From the IMG/VR virus record IMGVR_UViG_3300019924_000024, positions 1 through 21,208 of that record: DNA of 21,208 nucleotides, one strand, 5' to 3'. Below the pieces are notes generated by a model. The model made no database searches. It was not told where the DNA came from and saw only the letters and a program-made list of their open reading frames with translations. Shown one piece after another: positions 4,195 to 19,139 of the stretch. The DNA comes from a virus. Every line of letters begins with the position of its first letter. The stretch's first letter is position 1. Both the position numbers and the translations under genes were made by a program.

Positions 4195-4266
4195 GGGAGC
4201 GTATTGGAGGGGAGGGACGGGCGTGAGCCCGCAACCGCAACCGCTCCCACAGACCGCAACGAGCAG

Positions 4267-4758
4267 ATGGCCGACTTGACCTCGAAGCCTTGCCCCAATT
4301 GCACGCCCGACGAGACGCTCGAGCAGCACGAGGACCCGCACGGGAAGCACGTCCCCGGCTTCTGGAGGACGAATCGCTCCGAGAACACAAAGACGTGTTA
4401 CAACTGCGGGTACACCGAGGACTATCACCCGAAGTCCTCCCGCAACGGGAAGGAGCACGGCACCACGAAGTCTCAAGAGGAGAAGCTCGAGAAGCTCCGG
4501 GAGCACGCCGAAGATCACTCCCACACCGATTGGGAGATGGAGACGGAGCACCTCGACTCCGGGCCGATGAGCATTCGCCTTGAGTTTGATCCCGACGAGG
4601 CCCTGACCGGGGCCACCTTCCACGTCCACCTCTCGCGCCGGGGAAAGCTCGAAGTGAACTCTTGCTTCCCGCCCCTTGGAGGAGGAGCCGAGGACGCCCT
4701 CGTGTCGATGCTCGTCCGGGACACTGGCGGCCACGACGCACGCAACAAGTTTGAGTAG
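4267..4758 (+). CDS. Zinc-ribbon-like acidic protein (163 aa)
   Basis: Two CxxC pairs, C9-x2-C12 and C44-x2-C47 (CYNCGYTEDY), sit about 30 residues apart and suggest an N-terminal zinc ribbon. Residues 20-33 between them are His-rich. A charged helix follows (about 63-85, SQEEKLEKLREHAED), then a beta-like C-terminal half (98-140). The start is the ATG after ACCGCAACGAGCAG; in-frame upstream codons lie in the promoter leader. It is the first gene behind the consensus promoter. Zinc ribbons often bind nucleic acid or RNA polymerase, so a role in host transcription takeover is possible but unproven. Confidence 0.75.
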   Translation: MADLTSKPCPNCTPDETLEQHEDPHGKHVPGFWRTNRSENTKTCYNCGYTEDYHPKSSRNGKEHGTTKSQEEKLEKLREHAEDHSHTDWEMETEHLDSGPMSIRLEFDPDEALTGATFHVHLSRRGKLEVNSCFPPLGGGAEDALVSMLVRDTGGHDARNKFE

Positions 4759-7260: not shown

Positions 7261-8844
7261 TTACTGGCGAGTGCGAGGCACGGCGGCCTCCATTAGCTCG
7301 TCGGCCTCCTCGTCGGAGAACCCGGCCACCCGCGCTGCGGCACGGATGTTGGCTCCGGCTGCGGAAAGCTCTTTCGCAATCGTCGCCATCGCTGCTCGCC
7401 GCTCCACGGTTGGGATGTTCTCCTCGGCGATGCGGTCAAGCTCTTGCTCCACGTCAGAGATCCCAATGCGGTCGAGCATCGTTCGGAGCGAAAGCTGTTC
7501 CTTCTCCACCTGCTCCATGAGGACCCGGATCTCGTCCTCCGACAACACGCCCCGGTCTAGCCGAAGGTTGATCGAGGGCTCTACTCCCTCCATCCGATTG
7601 TCCCCGGAGAGGACCGACGCCATTCGTGGGAGGGTGGAGAGGATCCACTCCCCGCCCGAACGGAGTGTCCGCATCGTCGGGCGCAGGGAGGCGATGAACT
7701 CCTTCCGGGCCGCGATTCGGGCGATCCCGGAGGAGGATGCGTCCCCAGCCATGAGGACGTGTCGCTGGTCCGTCTCGGAGAGGATCGTCTCGTAGTGTAG
7801 GTCCCGCGTATCCTTGAAGGTATCCACCGGGGTCGGGTCCCGAAACTCCACGGAGGGGCTGTTGACCGTCTGATCCCCGTCTGCCGTCTCCTCCACGATC
7901 CCAGCGAGGAATGTTGTCTGCCCGGCCCCAGCCCGGTAGGGCGCATCGACCCACTCCGTCTCTCCGGACGCTCGCTCGACTTTCTTCTGTGGCCGTTGCG
8001 CGTTGAGGAAGATCCGTTCGGTGAACCCTGCCCAATCGAGGTTCGTGTCGCTCATCGTCAGGGCCTTGTTGACCGCGTGTTGCTGCTGGCGCACTTGCTC
8101 GGTGACGAGGGTTTCGCGGTCGATGGGCGTCATGTGGAGCCCCATTCCAAGATCGAGCGGGTCGGACCGGTCCACGGTGCGCTCAATCCCGTCCGGGGTC
8201 TTCTCCTGCTGAATGACAGCGAGGATGGTTCGCCCCTCCCCGTCCAGGATCGACACCTCCACAGTCTTTTCGTCAGCCCCGGCTTTTCGCCAGTACGCCG
8301 CAATCTTCTCCCCTTCGATTGTGGTCACGAGCCCCTGTTTCGGCTCCACGATCTCGAGGGTGAGAAGCTCGGACGCCAGCTCGAAGGACAGATCCTCCCG
8401 GAGCGTCCCCTCCTCGTTGTACGCCATGGGGCTCGGGTAGAGGCGAAAGTGCGGGGTCGCCCCGCAGAGGGTGTGGCGTCCCGCTTTCCGGAGGAGGTCG
8501 GTGATCTCTTCGGCTCCCGGCATCTCCTCCGCTACATCCTCGGCCCGGTCCGGGTCCTCGCTGCCGGGGTTTCGGAGGTAGTCCACAGAGGGCAGCCGAC
8601 CGATCACGCCGTTCAGGTGGCGCTCCACAACTTCCCGCACGACGTTCTGGCTGGTGAACGCCTGCTCGACGCGCCTCTTCTCCTTGTTGTGCTTCTCCGG
8701 GTTCTCTCCGGGGTCGGGGAGGACGCTCTCCCACCCTTCGCCCTCCTGCCAGTGATCCCCGTCCCACATCTGGTAGGCGGGGCCGTATCCGTCCGGGACG
8801 GACGGGCGAAGCTCATCGAGGTCGATCTCTTCGAGGTCGATCAT
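7261..8844 (-). CDS. Phage portal protein
   Basis: This 527-aa protein has the length, order and sequence style of portals of the SPP1 gp6 / DUF4055 type. An N-terminal alpha-beta region (about 50-190) leads to a helix with VRQQQHAVNKALTMSDTN (251-268), a motif-like LMAGDASSSGIARIAARKEF (364-383) and a helical C-terminus (about 431-510) typical of the portal crown. Portals form a ring at the head vertex through which TerL pumps DNA. It lies 91 bp after terL in the operon. Its leader holds three GGTTGCGG units, which are CCGCAACC in the sense of the gene. The assignment rests on pattern and position; no catalytic motif exists to check. Confidence 0.82.
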   Translation of the reverse strand: MIDLEEIDLDELRPSVPDGYGPAYQMWDGDHWQEGEGWESVLPDPGENPEKHNKEKRRVEQAFTSQNVVREVVERHLNGVIGRLPSVDYLRNPGSEDPDRAEDVAEEMPGAEEITDLLRKAGRHTLCGATPHFRLYPSPMAYNEEGTLREDLSFELASELLTLEIVEPKQGLVTTIEGEKIAAYWRKAGADEKTVEVSILDGEGRTILAVIQQEKTPDGIERTVDRSDPLDLGMGLHMTPIDRETLVTEQVRQQQHAVNKALTMSDTNLDWAGFTERIFLNAQRPQKKVERASGETEWVDAPYRAGAGQTTFLAGIVEETADGDQTVNSPSVEFRDPTPVDTFKDTRDLHYETILSETDQRHVLMAGDASSSGIARIAARKEFIASLRPTMRTLRSGGEWILSTLPRMASVLSGDNRMEGVEPSINLRLDRGVLSEDEIRVLMEQVEKEQLSLRTMLDRIGISDVEQELDRIAEENIPTVERRAAMATIAKELSAAGANIRAAARVAGFSDEEADELMEAAVPRTRQ

Positions 8845-8935: not shown

Positions 8936-10231
8936 CTAGGCCACCCGGCTGCGGACCGGGGGCGAGGACTTGCGGTTGCGGATTCGTTTTGCGATCACCG
9001 TGTAGAGGAAGTACCGGAGCGCGTCCATCGTGTGGTCGTTCTCCTTCACGGGCTTGTTGTGCTGGACGCCATCCCGCTCGTCCCACACGTAGGACTGGAA
9101 CTCCTTTCGGACTGGCTTCGTCGATGGAATATCGTTTACCCACAGGCGTTCCTCCCCCGGCGCTTCGTAGCCCAAGAGCCCGGCTGTGAAGTTGATGCCG
9201 TTGATTACGTCGTTGTCCCCAGCTTGCACCTCGAACCCTCGCTCTCGCAACTCGGCGATGAAGTCAGCCGCAGAAGGGTCCACCACGATTGCCTCCGGGC
9301 TCGTCCCCCGCAGGAAGTCCTCGAAGTCGTCTGCGTACTGCGGGTTTGTTTTGCGGGACTCGTTTTCGGCCCCGCCCTCGTGGAAGTAGCAGTCGAGGAG
9401 GTGAATCCGCTCTCGAGGGTCGTCCCACCCGAAGAGGAGATACGTGGTGGGGTTGACCGTCCCCTTGTCCACCGAAACCCCGTAGTGGTCGAATCCTTGG
9501 GGACAGTCCCGGACGTGGACGCCCGAGTTGAACATATCGTAGATCGCCCCCGCTGCCATGACCCACATTCCGAGGACGAGGCGTTGGTAGTAGAGGCCCT
9601 GGTACTCCCGTTCGATCTGCTTTACGAACTCCGATTCGAGGAACGGGTTGTCCTCCAACCGAAACCGGAAGTGCAGCCAGTCGAGGCTGTCCCCCTTGAT
9701 GCGGGAGAGCCAGTCCTCCCACAGCCAATGATTCGGGTGGTCGGGGTTGGTCGTCCCAATGCCCATCGCTCCTTTCGGGCTCATTCGCCCGAGAAGCTCA
9801 TCGAAGAAGTTTTGGGGCCAGAGCGTCACCTCGTCCCCGAGCCACCCGGCACACGTCATCCCCCGGAGTTTCTTGAACGAGCGGCGGTTGTAGGCCGAGA
9901 GGAGGTGGATCTCATGCCCGTCAAGGTTGGCCGACCGGTTCCCGAGCTTGTAGCTGAATACGTCGTCCCCGAAGAGGTTTTGGGCCGGGGTGAGGACGTT
10001 GCGCTCGAGGGAGTCGAGGGACTTCCCAATCATGATGAGTTGCCCCCGGTCGCCCCGGTTGTAGACGTGACGTGCCCACGGGAAGAGTGCCCCCATGGTT
10101 TTGCCGCTACGGATGGAGCCGACGTACAGAGCGATGCGAGGGTCCACCCTCCCAATCACGTCGGTCGCCCAAAGCTGCTTCGGGGCGATCCCGAACTCCT
10201 CCCCCTCAATGGCAAACGTCGGGAGGCTCAT
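8936..10231 (-). CDS. terL: Terminase large subunit (ATPase and nuclease)
   Basis: This 431-aa enzyme packages phage DNA. Walker A is GSIRSGKT (38-45), with the Walker B Asp-Glu at D133/E134 (GWLGDEVTL). The RNase H-like nuclease has acidic residues D255 (SVDKG), D318 (VVDPS) and D403 (DHTMDALRYFLY). The length is normal for the family. An in-frame ATG much further upstream overlaps the phosphoesterase gene. The ATG at 10231 is preferred because it overlaps that gene's stop by 4 bp and follows CAACAACCGCGCC. It lies between the phosphoesterase and the portal. Host-cell cytoplasm, at the procapsid vertex. Confidence 0.96.
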   Translation of the reverse strand: MSLPTFAIEGEEFGIAPKQLWATDVIGRVDPRIALYVGSIRSGKTMGALFPWARHVYNRGDRGQLIMIGKSLDSLERNVLTPAQNLFGDDVFSYKLGNRSANLDGHEIHLLSAYNRRSFKKLRGMTCAGWLGDEVTLWPQNFFDELLGRMSPKGAMGIGTTNPDHPNHWLWEDWLSRIKGDSLDWLHFRFRLEDNPFLESEFVKQIEREYQGLYYQRLVLGMWVMAAGAIYDMFNSGVHVRDCPQGFDHYGVSVDKGTVNPTTYLLFGWDDPRERIHLLDCYFHEGGAENESRKTNPQYADDFEDFLRGTSPEAIVVDPSAADFIAELRERGFEVQAGDNDVINGINFTAGLLGYEAPGEERLWVNDIPSTKPVRKEFQSYVWDERDGVQHNKPVKENDHTMDALRYFLYTVIAKRIRNRKSSPPVRSRVA

Positions 10232-11664
10232 GGCGCGGTTGTTGTAGCCTGTTCGGGAAGTAGGTCCGGGATGTAGGGGCGGTGACGGATGAGGCCGTGC
10301 TCGCGGTGGTAGTCGTGCGCCTCCGCAGCACGGAGCGCCCCGACGTAGCTGTTGCGCTTGTGGTAGGCGTCGGCAGGGCAGAGGGTCGGGGAGGTTCGGA
10401 CGAGGACGCCTTTGTGCTCCACGTAGCCCCCGACGCCTTCCAGGTGGCGGTTGTGAGTGTGCCCGGTGCGGACTTCGGTGTATTCGGCCCGGTGCCATTC
10501 CGGGTGCTCTGCGGCGAGGGCGTAGAGGTCCTTGGGCGCGAGGAGGCGACCCTCGTAATTCTTCCCGTGCGTGAAGCCGAGGAGCACTCTCCCGAACCGA
10601 AGGAACTGCCACGGATCGGCGCTCCGGTGAATCGTGGTCCCCTCGTCCTCCCGGAACCGCATCGAAAGGCATCGGCCCATCCAGTCGGCGGGGTCGAAGT
10701 CGTGGTTGCCGTGGACGACGACGCCGTGGACACGGAAGCCGAGGGACCGGGCCTCCTCAACGCCCCACTCATACATCCTCGCCATGGCCTCGCTCGTGTG
10801 GTGAGCCGGGGCGACCTGCGAGTACGGAGTCCCGTTCGCGCTCTCCCCCCGGACGCCGTTCATGTGCGCTGCGTCGTTTCCCACGTCGAACACCAGATCC
10901 GTCACCCCGTCCTCCTTCGCTCCCTCCATGAGATACGTGAAGGCGCTTCGCCATTGCTCCGTGCCGATGTCCAGATTCCACTCCATCTCTCCCCTCTTGC
11001 TCCAGATGAGGTTCCCCAGGTGGAGGTCAGGAATCCCGATCACGCGGACGATCTCCTCGGCAGGCGCATTGGGGAGGTTGATTTGAGGCGGGTCGTAGTC
11101 CTCCATGAGCCCTTCCGCGAACGCCACAGCCATTCTCCGATGCGTGGCCCGCCGCCACGTTACGCTGATTCGGAAGCACGGCACCTTCACCCCTTCCTCC
11201 TCCCGGACGAGCCGCTCGGTCCCCTCCACCTCCATCGTGGTGACGTTCTTGAGTTTCATCGGGACCTCGTGTTGACCACACTCGACCTTTTCCGGATAGA
11301 ACCGGTCTTCGTCCACGTCGAAGAACTCCTTGGCCTCATCGACGGAGTGAATCGGCTCCCGGACGTTGCGGACCGTCTTGAGCGTCTCCCCGTCTCTCAC
11401 GTGCTCCTCCTCGGGAGGGATCTCGGGGTCGGCCCGTTGCCCCTCCTCGAAGCCAATCTCCTCGCCTCGGGCGTACACCGCATCCAAGAGGTTCGCAAGG
11501 TAGGTGGGATCATTCTCGTGAGCGCGATACTGCCGGGTCCCGATTTGAGCGTTGAGCCACTCCTTGAGAGTAGAGTCGGGCATCTCGATGGCATCTGCCA
11601 TCGCCCGTTTCGAGTCGAAGTGCTGCTGGCTGATTCGTAGGGCTCGATGTAGGGGCTGGTGCAT
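10228..11664 (-). CDS. Calcineurin-like metallophosphoesterase with N-terminal HTH-like region
   Basis: The metallophosphoesterase motifs appear in order: PDLHLG (D213, H215), DVGND (GND 262-264), HGNHD (GNHD 319-322), THG (H366) and GHTH (401-404). Residues about 18-40 (SKRAMADAIEMPDSTLKEWLN) resemble a helix-turn-helix. The length of 478 aa is usual for phage SbcD-like or DNA-directed phosphoesterases, so a nuclease that works on phage DNA ends or on host DNA is the likely role. Cyclic-nucleotide or protein phosphatase activity cannot be excluded. The start is the ATG at 11664; the frame upstream to 11820 lacks domain sequence. The stop overlaps the terL start by 4 bp, implying coupled expression with packaging. 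Confidence 0.88.
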   Translation of the reverse strand: MHQPLHRALRISQQHFDSKRAMADAIEMPDSTLKEWLNAQIGTRQYRAHENDPTYLANLLDAVYARGEEIGFEEGQRADPEIPPEEEHVRDGETLKTVRNVREPIHSVDEAKEFFDVDEDRFYPEKVECGQHEVPMKLKNVTTMEVEGTERLVREEEGVKVPCFRISVTWRRATHRRMAVAFAEGLMEDYDPPQINLPNAPAEEIVRVIGIPDLHLGNLIWSKRGEMEWNLDIGTEQWRSAFTYLMEGAKEDGVTDLVFDVGNDAAHMNGVRGESANGTPYSQVAPAHHTSEAMARMYEWGVEEARSLGFRVHGVVVHGNHDFDPADWMGRCLSMRFREDEGTTIHRSADPWQFLRFGRVLLGFTHGKNYEGRLLAPKDLYALAAEHPEWHRAEYTEVRTGHTHNRHLEGVGGYVEHKGVLVRTSPTLCPADAYHKRNSYVGALRAAEAHDYHREHGLIRHRPYIPDLLPEQATTTAP

Positions 11665-11831
11665 AGGGGCGGGGGACGGAGAGTCTAGAAGCCGATGAGA
11701 TGGCCTGTCTGCTCTCGACTTGTCGGTCGGTCCTCGGAGAAGGCCCGGAAGGACAGTCCCGGCCCGGAAAGCCACTCGCTCAATTTCGGCCTCGACTGCC
11801 CCCTCCCCGGACAGAAGCAACGAGTCCGCTC

Positions 11832-12555: not shown

Positions 12556-13152
12556 TCATCGGATCTCTTCGTCCTCGAACTGCTCCATGTCTACCTCCTC
12601 TCGCGTCTTCTCCATGACCTCGACCATCTTCTCCATCCTGCTTCCGTCCTTCTTCGGCTCGTAGTCGTACATCCCGAGCAGTTGCCGACGCTTCTCTTGA
12701 ACGTGGAGGATGTGACGCCAGAGGCGAGGGTCCCGGAGGTTTTCCTTTGTCCGGGTCTTGAGCTCTCGTTCCGTGGGCTGTTTGTCCGTGGTCACTTTCC
12801 CTTCGGCGAGGTCCCCGCTTTCGGTGACCTTCATTTGGCTCGTTCGGGCGAGCACCTCTTTCACCTCCTTCGTTCGCTCCTCCGTGGGCTCCCCGCTCTC
12901 CTCCAACTGCTCAAAGAGCATCCGCTCGTTCATATCGAGCCGAGCAAGCTCCCGTCGCATTAGCTCGTCCATATCGACCAGCGCGGATTCCTGCCACCGG
13001 TCCTTGATGATCCCAAGATCCCGGTTCACCGTCGCCACGGACATATCGACCTCCTCCGCGATGATCCGTTGCGAGTAGCCTTGGAGGTACAGCCGAGCCA
13101 CTTTCTGCCGCCTCTTCGCAAGCTCAACCTTTTTCTGTTTGCTCGTACCCAT
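12556..13152 (-). CDS. HTH protein, probable terminase small subunit
   Basis: Residues about 17-47 form a helix-turn-helix (YLQGYSQRIIAEEVDMSVATV) preceded by a basic N-terminus. Long charged helices follow (60-110 and 165-195), rich in Glu/Arg and likely to oligomerise. Terminase small subunits combine an N-terminal HTH that binds the packaging site with a helical oligomerisation region, and this 198-aa length and position upstream of terL fit. A transcription regulator is the alternative. Four genes separate it from the portal, so the pairing with TerL rests on operon context. Confidence 0.68.
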   Translation of the reverse strand: MGTSKQKKVELAKRRQKVARLYLQGYSQRIIAEEVDMSVATVNRDLGIIKDRWQESALVDMDELMRRELARLDMNERMLFEQLEESGEPTEERTKEVKEVLARTSQMKVTESGDLAEGKVTTDKQPTERELKTRTKENLRDPRLWRHILHVQEKRRQLLGMYDYEPKKDGSRMEKMVEVMEKTREEVDMEQFEDEEIR

Positions 13153-13249: not shown

Positions 13250-13537
13250 TTAGGTCCCATGGCGTTCAAGAGCGGCGGCCCATGTTGGCTCCCGGCCAGT
13301 GTACGGGAACACCGACTCCCCGAGGACGCCCCTCCATCGAGAGACGGTCTTAGGGTCTACGCCGTAGAGCCACGCGACAGCCTCATCGGTCTCCTCGAGG
13401 GTGTATCCTTTCTCGCTGAAACGAACGCACAAGGACACCGCACTCGCACGAGCCTCTGGCGTGAGCGGGGTGTTCGGCGGGCGAGGGGCAAGGGTCCCCT
13501 CTAGTTTAGAACGGAGGTTCTTCCTCGACTGGCTCAT
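13250..13537 (-). CDS. Small HTH-like protein (95 aa)
   Basis: Residues 39-77 (SLCVRFSEKGYTLEETDEAVAWLYGVDPKTVSRWRGVLG) look like a helix-turn-helix with a recognition-type helix DPKTVSRWRG. The N-terminus is basic and Pro-rich. The start is the ATG at 13537, overlapping the end of the ParB-like gene by 32 bp; the frame further upstream lies wholly inside that gene. It may be a DNA-binding regulator or a second packaging-site factor next to the TerS-like protein. No family is named with confidence. Confidence 0.62.
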   Translation of the reverse strand: MSQSRKNLRSKLEGTLAPRPPNTPLTPEARASAVSLCVRFSEKGYTLEETDEAVAWLYGVDPKTVSRWRGVLGESVFPYTGREPTWAAALERHGT

Positions 13538-14291
13538 TGACTTCTTCGGTATCAATTGGAGCGCCTGTGAGATGGTCGGCGGCCAGAAGCTCAAGGATCT
13601 GGCCTCTGCGAAGCGGCGGGTCGTCCGGGAGGTCGTACCCCTCTTCCTCAAGCTGCTGGAGGACCCGCTCCTTTGCCTCCTCCCATACGTTCATCTGGTT
13701 TTCCGTAAGGAGAAACTCGACGGTTTCCCAATGGTCGGGGTCGTCCCCCTCTCCTTCCGCGCCCTCCTCGTCGTCCTCCGGGGCCTCCACCGAGTCCCAA
13801 TCGAAGTCGAGCATGTCATCGAAATTGTCCATCTCCTGCTCTGTGAACGGCGAGGTTTGCATCCAGTCCTCGCGCCCGAACTCCTCCTCGATGTCGTTCA
13901 GGGTTTCGGCCAGGTCGAGCGGGTCGGCATCGAAGTCCCCTTCGTTAATCTCCACGGCGATGCGCTTGGCGTGCGCTTCGGTGATCTCCCCCTTGTTGTA
14001 GCACACCGCCTCCTCCCTGCCGGCCTTGAGGTACGCCTCGATCCGGTGATTCCCGTCTACGGCCTCGAACAAGGGGCCGCCATCGTCTGCGGTCTGGTTC
14101 GGGAGAAGCCGAACGACGAGGTTCACGATTGCTCCCTCCCGCTCGATCTTTGCCCGTAGCTGTTCGGCCCGTGCGTCGTCCTCCTCCTTGTAATTCCATG
14201 GAGCCTTGACGATGCGGTGGACCGGGATGGAGACGTACCCCTCCGTGGTGGGCTTCTCGAGGAGGGTGTCGGTGTCGATGAATGTTTCCAT
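13506..14291 (-). CDS. ParB/sulfiredoxin-fold protein with DGNHR motif
   Basis: This 261-aa protein has an N-terminal ParB-like domain: IPVHRI (22-27), a helix through about 50, a strand pair, then VDGNHRIEAYLKAG (78-91) with the DGNHR box at 79-83. The C-terminal half is highly acidic and ends in EEPPF. In ParB-type proteins this box binds nucleotide and supports NTPase or nuclease activity. It follows the transporter and dpdA-like genes. The ATG at 14291 is chosen because CAACCGC precedes it; an in-frame ATG at 14369 overlaps the transporter stop by 4 bp and would add 26 residues. It may act in DNA modification, as DpdB does, or as a general phage ParB-like nuclease. Confidence 0.82.
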   Translation of the reverse strand: METFIDTDTLLEKPTTEGYVSIPVHRIVKAPWNYKEEDDARAEQLRAKIEREGAIVNLVVRLLPNQTADDGGPLFEAVDGNHRIEAYLKAGREEAVCYNKGEITEAHAKRIAVEINEGDFDADPLDLAETLNDIEEEFGREDWMQTSPFTEQEMDNFDDMLDFDWDSVEAPEDDEEGAEGEGDDPDHWETVEFLLTENQMNVWEEAKERVLQQLEEEGYDLPDDPPLRRGQILELLAADHLTGAPIDTEEVNEPVEEEPPF

Positions 14292-14365
14292 GGCGTAGGG
14301 CGGTTGGGGAGGAAGCAGGCGAGGGGAGGCCACGGGTTCGGCTGTCGGCCCGAGGCCGGTGGCAG

Positions 14366-15007
14366 TCATGCGGGGAGGGGCGAGGACCCATCAGAAGCGG
14401 AGTACCGGAGCACGATGATGTAGAGGAGTGCCCAGGCGACCCCGCCGATGGACTTGCTCCCCCACTGGCTGACCGCGATCCAAGAGTTGACTGCCCCGAA
14501 AGCGACGAGCGGGAACAGGATCGAGTCCATCGCTGCCCCAAAGACGTTGGAGATTGTCATTCGCCAGAAGCGAGACACGTCGGGCCGGTAGTGCAGGATG
14601 AGGTCGTACCCAATGGTATTGGCAAGGGTGGCCCCGGTGAACCCGGCCACCGACCCGGCAACGACCCACCCGGAAGCGGGATGGATGAGGACCGTAACGC
14701 CTCCCGCAACTGCGATTAGCAGGAGAAACCCCCGGTACACCTCCATGCGTGTCCGAGCCGCCCATTTCTCATGGAGCACGTCCCGCGCCACGAGATCGAA
14801 CGGGATGAGGACGAATGCCGTGAACGGGAGCGCGATCTGCCCGAAGGTGTAGACGAGGAGGTTGGCCGCAACGACCGCCCCAACGAAGAGGAGGATGCAC
14901 GCCCAACTTGCACGGGTCGTGCGGAGCCACTCCGGGAGGGTGTCCGGGGCCTCCGTCGCCAGAAAGTCAGGGAGCCAGTCAGTCTTGAGGTCCGGCATAT
15001 TTGGCAT
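14366..15007 (-). CDS. VUT-family queuosine precursor transporter (YhhQ-like)
   Basis: This 213-aa membrane protein has about six hydrophobic segments, beginning with ILLFVGAVVAANLLVYTFG (36-54). The pattern FVLIPFDLVARDVLHEKW (63-80) and a later SNVFGAAMDS match the VUT/DUF165 family. YhhQ, the characterised member, imports preQ0 or preQ1. In phages with deazaguanine DNA such transporters can salvage a precursor from outside the cell. The N-terminus overlaps the dpdA-like gene by 29 bp (a second Met at 14998 would shorten this). Substrate specificity is inferred from the family and the neighbours. Inner membrane. Confidence 0.85.
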   Translation of the reverse strand: MPNMPDLKTDWLPDFLATEAPDTLPEWLRTTRASWACILLFVGAVVAANLLVYTFGQIALPFTAFVLIPFDLVARDVLHEKWAARTRMEVYRGFLLLIAVAGGVTVLIHPASGWVVAGSVAGFTGATLANTIGYDLILHYRPDVSRFWRMTISNVFGAAMDSILFPLVAFGAVNSWIAVSQWGSKSIGGVAWALLYIIVLRYSASDGSSPLPA

Positions 15008-15785
15008 ACTCGTTGAGGGAGATTGCGGCGGACCAGTAGGTGCGGTCCTCTCGCTTGTTTTCGTAGCGGGAGGGCTGTGCGTCGATGCGGTCCAGCTTGA
15101 TGAGGCTGTCGTGCTCGCCCCGGTTCGGGAGGTCGGGGCCGGGAAGTTTGTCGTACATCACTCCCGCAAGCCATGAGGTAGAGTCACACGTATCGCACCA
15201 CCGAAACTGCTTGAGGAACTCGAATCCGGTGCAACCGAGGAGGTGAATCTTGAGCCCCATCTTTCGGGCCCGAGCAGAAAGGGCGGCGGTGAGCGAGGCC
15301 CGGTCCGGGGCATCCTTGTCCCGTAGCTCTGGCTGGCTGATCCCAATGTAGTCGCTGAACTCAAGGAGGTCGGTCGGGTCCTCGTCCTCGAGGTGGTACA
15401 CGTTCATGATCCGAGTATCCGGGGGCACACGCTTCCGCAAGTCCTTCCGAAGCCGCCATGCGGCCTCCGGGCCGAGCTTCTTCTGTACGTCTAGCTCAAC
15501 GAAGCTCACGTTCTCGAGCGGGAAGTCCCGGATGAACTCCACGTACTCGTCCTGCCACTCCTTCGCTTTCTCAAAGGTGAGGGTCTTGTCCGAGTCCGAC
15601 CCGAACATCATCGTGAAGAGGCCCGAGTCAATGATGAGATGCTCGAACTCGGAGTACACCTCCGTATCCTCGTCGGTCCACCCGTCCCCCTTGCGGAGAT
15701 AGTAGTAGGACCGGAGCGTGTACTTCACCCCGGCATCGAGCAGAACAGGAGGATGGAAGCCGTTCCCGGCGAAATGAACTTTCAT
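14979..15785 (-). CDS. dpdA: DpdA-like DNA guanine transglycosylase (TGT superfamily)
   Basis: This 268-aa protein has marks of phage DpdA: NGFHPPVLLDAG at the N-terminus, LIIDSGLFTMMFG (D53, matching the DSGGF Asp of tRNA-guanine transglycosylases), FVELDV (95-100), YIGIS (146-150), IHLLGCTG (180-187) and CDTCDSTSWLAG (197-208), whose D201 fits the nucleophile. No C-terminal zinc site is evident, as in other short DpdA proteins. The enzyme would replace guanine in phage DNA with a 7-deazaguanine base. It is the first gene of the long - strand operon, ahead of the transporter and ParB-like genes. Assignment to DpdA rather than tRNA TGT rests on sequence style, length and context. Confidence 0.85.
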   Translation of the reverse strand: MKVHFAGNGFHPPVLLDAGVKYTLRSYYYLRKGDGWTDEDTEVYSEFEHLIIDSGLFTMMFGSDSDKTLTFEKAKEWQDEYVEFIRDFPLENVSFVELDVQKKLGPEAAWRLRKDLRKRVPPDTRIMNVYHLEDEDPTDLLEFSDYIGISQPELRDKDAPDRASLTAALSARARKMGLKIHLLGCTGFEFLKQFRWCDTCDSTSWLAGVMYDKLPGPDLPNRGEHDSLIKLDRIDAQPSRYENKREDRTYWSAAISLNEYAKYAGPQD

Positions 15786-15839
15786 GGGGCGCAGGAGAGG
15801 TCGCAGTTACAGAGCAGTCGAAAAGCCGGGCCTGTCTCG

Positions 15840-15868
15840 TTGACTCTTATTAGAGCGAGTCTTATAAT
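15840..15868 (+). promoter_or_regulatory. Sigma70-type promoter, repeated family, copy 6 (consensus -10)
   Basis: TTGACT (15840-15845), 17-bp spacer, TATAAT (15863-15868). The spacer differs from other copies (CTTATTAGAGCGAG). It faces right from the start of the - strand operon and has no terminator directly upstream, unlike the other family members. Confidence 0.92.
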
Positions 15869-16001
15869 GGGAGTGCGTTAAGGAGGGACGGGGCACGGCC
15901 CAAACAGGGCCGCCCGGCCCGATGCCAAGACGCCCGACCGCAACCGCAACCGAAGCGCCAGTTTCGAGGCGCAAGTTTCTCACTCAACCGCAACGGCTAC
16001 C
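15869..16001 (+). promoter_or_regulatory. Structured leader of the 16002 gene
   Basis: CGGCCC-AAACA-GGGCCG (15896-15912) forms a 6-bp hairpin. ACCGCAACCGCAACCG lies at 15937-15952. A second stem, GCGCC (15955-15959) with GGCGC (15968-15972), precedes AACCGCAAC and the start codon. A 27-codon open frame begins at 15922 and its TGA overlaps the ATG at 16002; it may be a leader peptide or chance. Confidence 0.5.
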
Positions 16002-16292
16002 ATGATGCAAGTAACCAGAGGCACCGACTCCCGCCGCATCGTCATCACCGATGGCCTTGTCGCTGACGGCGTTCTCTCCGTCTACGTCGAGATCGGGCAC
16101 GATAACATCGAGCGCGGGGACGAGCCCGTGCGCCCGGTACATGAGACCAAGGATCTCATCCTCAACTTTCTCAACGAGGCGTGGCCGCAGATCGAAGGCC
16201 GGGACGCCGCAGGCATCAAGGAGGACATCGAGCAGCTTATCGAGCCCGATTACGTCAACCCTCGGGTGTTCGTGAGCCTTCGCGTTCACTAG
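16002..16292 (+). CDS. Small acidic protein of unknown function (96 aa)
   Basis: No family is recognised. Residues 10-40 form likely beta strands (RRIVITDGLVADGVLSVYVEIG) and residues 48-75 a helix (ETKDLILNFLNEAWPQIEG). Two adjacent ATGs at 16002 and 16005 could start it. It is the only gene of the unit driven by the consensus promoter at 15840 and lies between the two - strand modification blocks. Its 3' end overlaps the convergent T-fold-like gene by 38 bp. A strong private promoter suggests early or constant high expression. Confidence 0.72.
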   Translation: MMQVTRGTDSRRIVITDGLVADGVLSVYVEIGHDNIERGDEPVRPVHETKDLILNFLNEAWPQIEGRDAAGIKEDIEQLIEPDYVNPRVFVSLRVH

Positions 16293-16767
16293 GACTGTCC
16301 AGCACATCGGCCCCAATTGTGGTCACTTCATCCCGCAAGGGGATCTTCGCCGCCTCTCCGGTCGAATCCGGGGGGGCGGCTTTTTCTTTGCGGCTCCCGT
16401 ACAGAACCTTGGCTCCGTTCTCCCCGTCCTCGGACACCTCCACCGACCGAACGGAGTACTCACGGCTGAAAAGGAGGTAGGCGATGCGGTGGCACATCTC
16501 CTCGCAGGACGTTTCGGCTTGATACCCGGAAAGCCACTCCTCGGCGATCCCTTCGACCTCCTGCTTGAGCATGATGAACTCCACGTCCCGGTCGTCATGC
16601 CCTACTGCGACGTGGACCTCGGCCCGAAACTCGTGTCGGTGCGGGTGTTGGAGGAAGTCCACCACCGGAGGGGCGCTCGACCAGTGATGAATCCCGGACC
16701 ACCGGACGGTGCAGTAGACCGTCTTCTCTCGCTCGACTAGGGTTTGGTCGCTGGTCGGGTGTGCCAT
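16255..16767 (-). CDS. T-fold (QueD-like) phage protein of unknown function (170 aa)
   Basis: Residues 20-60 (VRWSGIHHWSSAP then HPHRHEFRAEV) place a His pair and an HxH box as in the zinc site of 6-carboxytetrahydropterin synthase. VEVSEDGENGA (109-119) sits where QueD has its WET...A end. The catalytic Cys that precedes HGH in QueD is missing. Similar proteins with HRH and EDGENGA boxes occur in other phages without a known function, to my knowledge. It is the last gene of the QueD-QueE-FolE block, 12 bp after folE, so a role in the same pathway is a fair guess. A + strand terminator lies inside its coding region. Confidence 0.72.
   Translation of the reverse strand: MAHPTSDQTLVEREKTVYCTVRWSGIHHWSSAPPVVDFLQHPHRHEFRAEVHVAVGHDDRDVEFIMLKQEVEGIAEEWLSGYQAETSCEEMCHRIAYLLFSREYSVRSVEVSEDGENGAKVLYGSRKEKAAPPDSTGEAAKIPLRDEVTTIGADVLDSPSEREGSRTPEG
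16349..16389 (+). terminator. + strand terminator inside the opposing gene
   Basis: GCCGCC (16349-16354) pairs with GGCGGC (16375-16380), with an inner CCGG/CCGG pair, followed by TTTTTCTTT. It would end the transcript from promoter 15840 within the antisense T-fold-like gene. Confidence 0.75.
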
Positions 16768-16779
16768 GGGCAGGGCTCG

Positions 16780-17376
16780 CTAGGTGCGGTTTCGTAGGCG
16801 AAGAAATTCGGACCGGGCCTTGGAGTCCTCCTTGAAGATCCCGGTCACGCATGAGGTGGTCGTTTCGGCGTCGGGCTGCTCCACTCCCCTCATCTCCATG
16901 CACAGGTGTCGGGCCGTAGTGACCACGGCAGTCCCGCGAGGCGCAAGCTCCTCCTCGAGAAAGTCGCTGATCTGGCGCGTCATGCGTTCCTGCGTTTGAA
17001 GGCGTCGGGCGTAGAAGCGCACCAGCCGGGAGAGCTTCGAGAGCCCCACGAGGTCCCCGTCCGGAAGATACGCGACCGTTGCGTGGCCGAAGAACGGAAG
17101 CATATGATGCTCGCACAGGGAGTAGAACCGAATGTCGGTCTGGGCGACGACCTGATCTGCGGTCGGGTCCGCGAAGGTCGTAAAGTTGATCGTCGCATCC
17201 TCTTTGATGAAGTCGCGCCACCACTCTTGGACTCGGCGCGGTGTCTCCTCGAGGTCTGGACGGTCGTGGGACTTGGGCTCGACGTAGGCGAGGACGCCCC
17301 GCACGAGATCGCGGATGGTCTTCTCCCGTTGTGTTGGAGGCGTTCGCTGTTTGGACTTCGGGGCCGGGGGTTCCAT
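16780..17376 (-). CDS. folE: GTP cyclohydrolase I
   Basis: This 198-aa enzyme turns GTP into 7,8-dihydroneopterin triphosphate, the first step to folate and to 7-deazaguanines. The signature SLCEHHMLPFFGHATVAY (86-103) gives zinc ligands C88 and H91, and HLCMEMRGV (157-165) gives C159. VGLSKLSRLVRFYARRLQTQERMT and the TTTSCVTGIF end are typical of the type I enzyme at full length. The ATG at 17376 follows AACCGC and begins 5 bp before the end of queE on the coding strand; an upstream TTG at 17394 is less likely. In this block it supplies QueD. Confidence 0.97.
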   Translation of the reverse strand: MEPPAPKSKQRTPPTQREKTIRDLVRGVLAYVEPKSHDRPDLEETPRRVQEWWRDFIKEDATINFTTFADPTADQVVAQTDIRFYSLCEHHMLPFFGHATVAYLPDGDLVGLSKLSRLVRFYARRLQTQERMTRQISDFLEEELAPRGTAVVTTARHLCMEMRGVEQPDAETTTSCVTGIFKEDSKARSEFLRLRNRT

Positions 17377-17380
17377 GCGG

Positions 17381-18157
17381 TTATTCTGCTCCAAGGGTCT
17401 TATGAGACTGCGTTGAGGCTCTCCATCCCTCTCGGCTTGTGGTCACGTCCTTCACGATGTTGCACGCCTCCTCGAAACGTGGCCCCGCTTCGGGCTGGAC
17501 GTAGAGATGCTTCTGTGGGCCTTGAGGTGTGGTTCGCTCGCGGCATTTCTCCTCAAGGGTCCAGTAGTCTTTCGGGTGGAAGTCCGGGACGACGAGCTTG
17601 GCCTCATCTACGGCCTCAATCTTGATCTGGCGTTGCGCTACCTTTGGCGAGCAGCATACCCAATCCGGGGTGGCCGGGTTGGTGTGCTCTACTGCCCCGA
17701 ACACGCCTTCCAAGGGCTGCGTCCCGTTGGTCTCGACGGTGATACACAGATCCGGGAACCGCTCGTGGAGCCGGAAGAAAAGGTCGGAGTCGAGTTGTAG
17801 GAGGGGCTCCCCGCCCGTGAAGACAGCGAGGGGAGGAGTACCTACTCGCTCAATCTCGTCCCCGATCTGCTTTGCCTTGAGCATCTCACTTCCCTCTGGC
17901 CGGAAGTCCGTGTCGCACCACATTGGGCAGCCGTAGGGATCATCCCCCTCCGTGTTGCGGCGAGCGTCCCGCTCCCGGTCCTTCTCGTACCCGCTCCACA
18001 TATTGCATCCGGTGAGGCGAACAAACACCGCATGGGTTCCCGACCAGAAGCCCTCCCCCTGAATGGTGGGGAAGATTGCTTTCACCCGGTACTCCGGGAC
18101 TGCACTACTGGAATCGCTTGAGAAATTGGCGGGGAGGGACGCGGAGGTAGGGCTCAT
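17381..18157 (-). CDS. queE: 7-carboxy-7-deazaguanine synthase (radical SAM)
   Basis: This 258-aa enzyme converts 6-carboxytetrahydropterin to 7-carboxy-7-deazaguanine. The start AIFPTIQGEGFWSGTHAVFVR (28-48), the cluster-binding RLTGCNMW (C51), GCPMWCDTDF (C77, C81) and the SAM motif FTGGEPLLQ (113-121) are clear. The Cys spacing is CX25CX3C rather than the usual CX3CX2C or CX14CX2C. The C-terminus contains a cysteine-containing CCSPK and a KLVVPDF segment. The first 20 residues are Ser/Ala-rich and probably disordered. It lies between queD and folE in a - strand operon. Confidence 0.94.
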   Translation of the reverse strand: MSPTSASLPANFSSDSSSAVPEYRVKAIFPTIQGEGFWSGTHAVFVRLTGCNMWSGYEKDRERDARRNTEGDDPYGCPMWCDTDFRPEGSEMLKAKQIGDEIERVGTPPLAVFTGGEPLLQLDSDLFFRLHERFPDLCITVETNGTQPLEGVFGAVEHTNPATPDWVCCSPKVAQRQIKIEAVDEAKLVVPDFHPKDYWTLEEKCRERTTPQGPQKHLYVQPEAGPRFEEACNIVKDVTTSREGWRASTQSHKTLGAE

Positions 18158-18208
18158 GCCTTGAGGGGCCAGTTGGGGAAGAATTAGAGGAGGCCATCGG
18201 CCAGGAGC

Positions 18209-18643
18209 CTACGCCACGATCTCGCAGTACATCGAATCGGTTTCCCAAAGGCGCACCCGCGAGATGCCCAGGCTCGTCTCCTCCCGGAGCCGATCCAGAG
18301 CCCATTCGACTAGGTTCTCGGCGGTCGTCGTGGCCCCAATCTCGACAACTCGGTAGTCCAGCTCTTTGAGGACTGGCGTGATGGGCTCCTCCCCGGACGC
18401 GATGAAAGAGTGGTCGAGCTTGTCCACGACCGCCTCCTTGACTTCGGACTTGATGCGACGGGCGTTAGCGAGCATCCCTTTCTCTACGCCTTCGCTCTGG
18501 CGCTCCCCGAATATCTCAACCTCGAGATGGTAGGTGTGGCCGTGGACCTGTTGACAGTCCTTGACGCCGGGGACGCTGTGGGCAGCGTGGAAGTGAAATT
18601 GCTTCGTGACCGTGGGCTCCGGGGTTGGCTCGTCGGTCGGCAT
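18209..18643 (-). CDS. queD: 6-carboxy-5,6,7,8-tetrahydropterin synthase
   Basis: This 144-aa T-fold enzyme makes 6-carboxytetrahydropterin from dihydroneopterin triphosphate. Zinc ligands are H22 (FHAAHSVPG) and H34/H36 (HGH), and the catalytic Cys is C30 (DCQQVHGH). LDHSF (76-80), TTAENLVEWALDRL and the closing VRLWET (E134) match the family. The ATG at 18643 fits its usual length; an open extension to 18748 adds a basic, unlikely stretch. It is the first gene of the QueD-QueE-FolE block, and 51 bp separate it from queE. Confidence 0.95.
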   Translation of the reverse strand: MPTDEPTPEPTVTKQFHFHAAHSVPGVKDCQQVHGHTYHLEVEIFGERQSEGVEKGMLANARRIKSEVKEAVVDKLDHSFIASGEEPITPVLKELDYRVVEIGATTTAENLVEWALDRLREETSLGISRVRLWETDSMYCEIVA

Positions 18644-18846: not shown

Positions 18847-18866
18847 CCCAATACTGCACCCTTCCC

Positions 18867-19139
18867 ATGGCCTCCAACGAGCAAACGCCCGGTTCTCCCG
18901 CGACCCGCGAAGAAGACAAGCCAGTAGGCCCCAAAGACCGGTCTGATGTTGCCGACCTCGTGCATTCCGACATTGAAAGCCGCGCCGAAATAGGCCGGGA
19001 GAAGTACGGGGAACGGCTCTCGATTTTCAACGGCAGAGATGCGCTGGTCGATGCCTACCAAGAGGCCCTCGACCTTGTGATGTATCTTCGGCAGCGAATT
19101 GAGGAGCGAAACCAAAGCGAGCCACCGACCTCGAACTGA
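18867..19139 (+). CDS. MazG-like helical phage protein (90 aa)
   Basis: The core ADLVHSDIESRAEIGREKYGERL (29-51) followed by DALVDAYQEALDLVMYLRQRIEER (58-81) matches a small family common in phages and usually annotated as MazG-like or nucleotide pyrophosphohydrolase-like. The E...E and D residues in these helices fit the all-alpha NTP-PPase fold, which would act on abnormal or excess nucleotides, but the metal-binding set is incomplete. The N-terminal 25 residues look disordered. Start: ATG at 18867. An open extension upstream runs through the hairpin and is rejected. Its TGA overlaps the ATG of the next frame (TGATG). Confidence 0.75.
   Translation: MASNEQTPGSPATREEDKPVGPKDRSDVADLVHSDIESRAEIGREKYGERLSIFNGRDALVDAYQEALDLVMYLRQRIEERNQSEPPTSN

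Follow-up and report, generated by a model that had tools for sequence, protein, structure and literature searches.

A predicted 7-deazaguanine DNA modification cassette with a QueD-fold protein in the place of QueC, located upstream of phage terminase genes

FolE, QueD and QueE make 7-carboxy-7-deazaguanine (CDG), which QueC converts to preQ0 (PMC13329287), and DpdA-dependent 7-deazaguanines shield the DNA of phage CAjan from restriction (PMC6884629). Which base would be made by a phage that has such a module without QueC? This question is raised by the virus record IMGVR_UViG_3300019924_000024, a fragment of a phage genome, which was analyzed here over its whole length of 21,208 bases (the window). 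Genes for base synthesis and for a DpdA-like transglycosylase lie in it upstream of packaging genes. No QueC, and hence no complete preQ0 pathway, was found in this fragment or in a second contig, L001, whose DpdA is 79% identical to that of the window. We consider it likely that the cassette is a 7-deazaguanine DNA modification system that branches at CDG and bypasses preQ0. Modules of this kind are already known; the new element is a small protein with a QueD fold, designated ORF-X, which alters the predicted base. Gene content, predicted folds, the mutual exclusion of ORF-X and QueC and the order of genes next to the terminase were all computed here. The genes of the module are as follows.

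18209-18643, minus strand: QueD (6-carboxytetrahydropterin synthase); PF01242, E 3e-25; phrog_2389
17381-18157, minus strand: QueE (7-carboxy-7-deazaguanine synthase, radical SAM); phrog_2076, E 5e-24
16780-17394, minus strand: FolE (GTP cyclohydrolase I); PF01227, E 5e-60; phrog_2197, E 4e-58
16255-16767, minus strand: ORF-X, QueD-fold protein; phrog_17812, E 5e-21
14979-15785, minus strand: DpdA-like DNA guanine transglycosylase (its clade is called DpdA-A below); phrog_887, E 1e-16
14366-15007, minus strand: VUT/YhhQ-type (COG1738) transporter; PF02592, E 6e-7; phrog_4899, E 2e-19

The initial annotation of this locus, made from the sequence alone, listed queD, queE, folE, the dpdA-like gene and the VUT gene. 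Family matches confirm these five genes, all on the minus strand; ORF-X (phrog_17812) was left out of its module. The motifs of QueD are intact in the profile alignment and the sequence (HAAH, catalytic Cys, HGH, DH and E), and an open reading frame with an alternative TTG start extends this gene to 18748. QueE shares about 30% identity with QueE proteins annotated in phages. The transporter scores 30.4 bits against PF02592, above the family cut-off of 27.2, and its substrates are probably deazaguanines. The same order of module genes is kept in L001, and the arrangement is therefore not due to chance.

ORF-X and the absence of QueC

The AlphaFold model of ORF-X, built from 78 sequences, has a predicted local distance difference test (pLDDT) score of 94.7 and shows the QueD/PTPS fold (Z 14.7). 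With Foldseek it matched E. coli QueD (4ntk) with an E-value of 2.3e-6 and a template modelling (TM) score of 0.82. The His triad of the zinc site (H27/H43/H45) is conserved, with the HRH of ORF-X aligning onto the HGH of QueD, and E113 is also kept; a zinc site is likely in the modelled protein. In the profile alignment, nothing in ORF-X corresponds to C65 of QueD and the Asp-His pair (LDH) is lost, and R60, E63, C88 and E89 are invariant residues peculiar to ORF-X. As modelled, ORF-X is a QueD scaffold without the catalytic residues of QueD, and hence not a QueD. Sequence-profile searches of PDB with ORF-X returned only weak QueD/PTPS matches and unrelated ones.

Occurrence of ORF-X and QueC was assessed with local profiles in 139 sampled loci, each with its anchor gene at least 2.5 kb from either contig end. 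These came from three slightly overlapping samplings; some contigs were in two samples, and contigs were related. Not a single locus carried both genes, 76 had ORF-X only and 58 had QueC only. QueC without ORF-X was present in 56 of the 57 loci of the QueE-led sample, the query for which was headed by phages that carry QueC, and the remaining locus had neither gene. The DpdA-A-led sample (n = 31) included 25 loci with ORF-X only, two with QueC only, four with neither and none with both, and QueC was absent in 51 of 51 loci of the ORF-X-led sample. The pooled Fisher value of 1e-33 is indicative only, given related contigs, shared samples and the QueC-led query.

Better evidence than this value is provided by replacement cases. 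Three DpdA-A contigs (L168, L170 and L139) contain QueC where sister loci carry ORF-X, and the DpdA-A tree requires at least two changes of the ORF-X/QueC label. The placement of the window DpdA inside the clade is unsure, with long branches, and was not used. In contig L094, whose large terminase (TerL) is 80% identical to that of the window, queD, queE and folE are followed by QueC fused to Gat and by a DpdA of the classic type, and these two occupy the slot of ORF-X, DpdA-A and VUT. Such natural swap pairs, with ORF-X or with QueC or Gat-QueC at one locus, bear on how transglycosylases and bases are matched.

Whole-record searches detected QueE in 46 of 47 ORF-X records and full QueC in none of the 47, the exceptions being weak or partial matches. 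In 11 named phages inspected, ORF-X was beside or near folE, queD or queE and was mostly annotated as hypothetical; homologs in Cellulophaga phiST and Acidovorax ACP17 lie near FolE/QueD/QueE genes in records with no QueC. ORF-X is found immediately before DpdA-A, frequently with an overlap of the two genes, and also in phages without DpdA-A, alongside unrelated DpdA types. A role as a subunit of DpdA-A was ruled out by its occurrence in phages that do not have this clade. The presence of ORF-X would explain the lack of QueC in many QueE-bearing phages, and this one small gene would predict which phages have a non-preQ0 deazaguanine.

The cassette was also seen outside named phages. ORF-X, DpdA-A, QueD, QueE and FolE are present in a cultured strain, Veillonella montpellierensis DSM 17217 (L165), as a possible inducible prophage. 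Two contigs binned as Thermoguttaceae of the Planctomycetota (L175 and L176) carry it as well, and its host range may be wide.

The transglycosylase and the predicted base

The DpdA-like protein matched no Pfam family, and a search of the window for PF01702 gave no match. Its AlphaFold model (36 relatives; pLDDT 85.9) has the fold of tRNA-guanine transglycosylase (TGT) over residues 1-266 (Z 18.6), and the best Foldseek match of the model was archaeosine TGT (4.9e-5). D53 and D201, the two residues pointed out in the initial annotation, are invariant in the alignment of 36 sequences, as is D99; D53 and D201 were equated with the catalytic aspartates of TGT by motif judgement. The C-terminal CxCxxC...H (Cys3-His) zinc motif of tRNA TGTs was not found in DpdA-A, which, with neither PF01702 nor this zinc site, falls outside the bacterial TGT family and is 268 residues long compared to about 370. 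In profile-to-profile comparison (hhalign), DpdA-A matched 9g-type DpdA with an E-value of 6.5e-9, and the two profiles score one another's members weakly. Sequence-profile searches of PDB with DpdA-A found nothing, and its relatives in named phages were only Faecalibacterium phage Roos and one weak unannotated record. The PDB searches listed no TGT-fold structures other than tRNA enzymes, so that a structural alignment with tRNA TGTs does not by itself settle whether DpdA-A is one of them. By modelled fold, aspartates and sequence grouping, DpdA-A is classed as a phage DpdA and not a tRNA TGT, in keeping with the proposed module for making a 7-deazaguanine base and inserting it into DNA. Most likely, DpdA-A swaps guanine for a 7-deazaguanine in DNA.

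With its FolE, QueD, QueE and phage TGT-like transglycosylase, the module is like the dG+/dPreQ0 systems of 9g and Escherichia phage CAjan (Hutinet et al. 2019, PMC6884629), and as in those, protection against restriction is presumed. In Enterobacteria phage 9g, however, Gat-QueC and a 9g-type DpdA are located among replication genes, whereas the window has ORF-X and no QueC, its DpdA belongs to a distant clade related by profile match only, and its module precedes the terminase.

We propose that FolE, QueD and QueE convert GTP to CDG, that ORF-X acts on CDG, which it most likely decarboxylates to 7-deazaguanine, and that DpdA-A exchanges guanine in phage DNA for the resulting base. The modified base would probably block restriction enzymes, and VUT may supplement the supply of base from outside the cell. 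CDG is the likely substrate of ORF-X because ORF-X stands in for QueC. Decarboxylation is our best guess: a protein of the QueD fold that has no ATP site like that of QueC would most simply remove the carboxyl group. Cui et al. (2023, NAR 51:9214) reportedly described further phage deazaguanine pathways, including a proposed CDG decarboxylase, DpdL, with which this guess agrees. ORF-X may be DpdL; the DpdA-A clade, its linkage to terminase and the exchanges of ORF-X and QueC were measured in the present analysis. The initial annotation proposed a deazaguanine product without a specific base and did not remark on the lack of QueC; the general proposal holds, and a product of the preQ0/G+ type is not likely because the QueD-fold protein of the module excludes QueC across the 139 loci.

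Several points weigh against a branch at CDG through ORF-X. Decarboxylation is guessed from where the pathway branches, and we infer what ORF-X catalyzes, which base results, the protection from restriction and the late timing discussed below. Four DpdA-A loci (L120, L126, L169 and L179) have neither ORF-X nor QueC, and the clade is thus not strictly dependent on ORF-X. In addition, the window is fragmentary, and QueC may be encoded elsewhere in the phage or in the host. Phage Roos has ORF-X and no QueE match in its record, in which case CDG would be host-made or imported. In the stretch of L168 that was read, QueC, DpdA-A and VUT were present and QueD, QueE and FolE were not found; the gene sets of Roos and L168 fit a base, or CDG, that is taken from the host or imported.

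A host contribution has been proposed for other phages (PMC6884629), and here it could mean that host QueC finishes a preQ0-type modification while ORF-X has a role unrelated to the base. QueC is common in hosts, the window is incomplete, and DpdA-A does occur with QueC in L139, L168 and L170. However, the exclusion of QueC and ORF-X holds across the three samplings, and their repeated exchange on the tree, together with the Gat-QueC swap in L094, ties ORF-X to the QueC step, so that completion by host QueC appears quite improbable. That step could also simply be missing: CDG itself, made by QueE without QueC, might be inserted to give dCDG, with ORF-X not a decarboxylase but a binding or delivery partner that supplies the transglycosylase with CDG. 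ORF-X has a fold of the pterin- or purine-binding kind and its gene comes immediately before that of DpdA-A, frequently with an overlap, and the substrate of QueC was weighed by Hutinet et al. (PMC6884629) as a possible modification of the QueC-less phage Bipper. Direct insertion is nevertheless unlikely in our view, given the full His triad zinc site and the invariant acidic, Arg and Cys residues of ORF-X, which are typical of an enzyme, and its occurrence alongside unrelated DpdA types, which speaks against a partner specific to one DpdA.

The solved fold relatives of the transglycosylase are tRNA TGTs, and it might accordingly act on tRNA, the cassette raising host queuosine during infection. 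Against this stand the missing PF01702 match and CxCxxC...H zinc motif, the length of 268 versus about 370 residues, the match to the phage DpdA family, the absence of QueC and the position upstream of the terminase; we regard a tRNA target as highly improbable.

Gene order next to the terminase

Why the module lies beside packaging genes is the second question raised by this locus. The genes concerned are as follows.

16002-16292, plus strand: small opposing gene, which splits the module between ORF-X and dpdA
13506-14369, minus strand: ParB-like protein, separating the module from the packaging genes; phrog_723, E 8e-11
12556-13152, minus strand: helix-turn-helix protein, probable small terminase (TerS-like); Terminase_5 PF06056, E 7.5e-5; phrog_645, E 1e-16
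10228-11820, minus strand: phosphoesterase
about 8936-10240, minus strand: large terminase TerL; PF03237, E 1.5e-15; phrog_2, E 2e-39
7261-8844, minus strand: probable portal protein, directly after TerL, a position conserved in L094

The 7261-8844 protein has no Pfam or PHROG match, and its portal label is by position only. Modification genes had been described as interleaved with packaging genes; they are instead located upstream of them and are divided by the opposing gene. That the two sets adjoin, as a matter of gene order, is borne out in other contigs. TerL is downstream of DpdA-A on the same strand in all 27 contigs that have a PF03237 match (three of these matches being below the family cut-off), with 1.0-4.7 kb between it and the end of dpdA, two of these distances being counted across contig ends. 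In ten further DpdA-A contigs the first large downstream open reading frame is TerL by PHROGs, and in L169 and L178 TerL is likewise downstream, giving a total of 39 contigs. These are not independent events, as some are near-copies, and short contigs reveal near neighbors only. The link was also detected in contigs longer than 30 kb (L113, L114, L115, L126, L140, L155, L135 and L143), and several differing gene orders of DpdA-A contigs all end in terminase. A portal gene is downstream in L165, no terminase match was found in L146 or L179, and L139, with a helicase downstream of DpdA-A, is a clear counterexample.

In control genomes (ORF-X records without DpdA-A, and 9g-type phages), TerL was at least 10 kb away and mostly more than 18 kb, although many of these genomes are larger, which weakens the contrast in distance. 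The near controls were G002 and G018, with DpdA genes beside ORF-X, and G025, at 7.3 kb. At the level of gene order, the link to packaging is real.

Two named phages have comparable arrangements. In Faecalibacterium phage Roos, orf76-orf79 encode ParB, ORF-X, DpdA-A and VUT at the record end, and TerL and portal genes are at the record start; its VUT, in the same position after DpdA, matches PF02592 with an E-value of 2e-42. Unlike the window, Roos would rely on a host-made or imported base, as no QueE match was found in its record. Mycobacterium phage Bipper, like the window, has genes for ParB-like protein, DpdA, QueD, QueE, FolE, TerS-like protein, TerL and portal (gp1-gp11) in this order, which share a single strand together with the hypothetical protein gp4 and have no QueC in their vicinity; in contrast to the window, its DpdA is of the 9g type and no VUT match was found among the proteins tested. 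The module-terminase arrangement is therefore not unique to DpdA-A. We considered gp4 as an ORF-X homolog and rejected it, as it did not match the ORF-X profile. This protein of the QueC-less phage (L164, 2047-2472) has an HFHT motif, is encoded between the genes for DpdA and QueD, and may represent another route from CDG.

Because the module sits just upstream of the terminase, modification by the proposed CDG branch would probably occur late, shortly before packaging. A packaging-coupled system can also be imagined, in which a deazaguanine made independently of QueC is inserted only at a late stage, at the terminase complex or close to it, and recognition by terminase or headful cutting depends on or follows the modified base. 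We hold this to be unlikely; if true, the conserved slot before TerL would reflect a function beyond gene order. The conserved linkage makes coordination of modification and packaging a testable question.

As a separate observation, L139, which has QueC and lacks ORF-X, carries a tandem pair of DpdA-A genes, and these are followed by a primase/helicase instead of a terminase.

Transcription and small elements of the window

The opposing gene at 16002-16292 is kept antiparallel in L001 and L094. A terminator-like hairpin of this gene is present at 16349-16380, and on its other side lies a strong promoter-like element:

15840-15868, plus strand: promoter-like element of the opposing gene (TTGACT-17-TATAAT), divergent from dpdA

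Since this gene with its promoter and hairpin lies between them, the base-making genes and dpdA are likely separate transcription units. A sigma70-like minus-strand promoter before dpdA was sought and not found. dpdA is likely the first gene of a predicted unit running towards TerL, and overlaps of 29 nucleotides between dpdA and VUT and of 4 nucleotides between VUT and ParB support one transcript for these three genes.

The element TTGACTCTnATnAGnCCnnnnCTnATAmTGG occurs in seven copies in the window and in none of 100 shuffles. Its copies are as follows.

641, 1272, 2248, 4166, 5193 and 15840, plus strand: promoter-like element copies
20668, minus strand: promoter-like element copy

Most copies are upstream of small early-type genes, and the plus strand carries all but one of them. 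In addition, a leader around ACCGCAACnG recurs shortly before start codons, for example at 2580-2613, 4240-4273 and 15928-15953, where it replaces an obvious Shine-Dalgarno site. A small gene at 18855-19139 (plus strand) is divergent from queD; the C-terminal part of its product has matches in phrog_7609 and phrog_139, to the end of phage deoxynucleoside monophosphate kinase and to other families.

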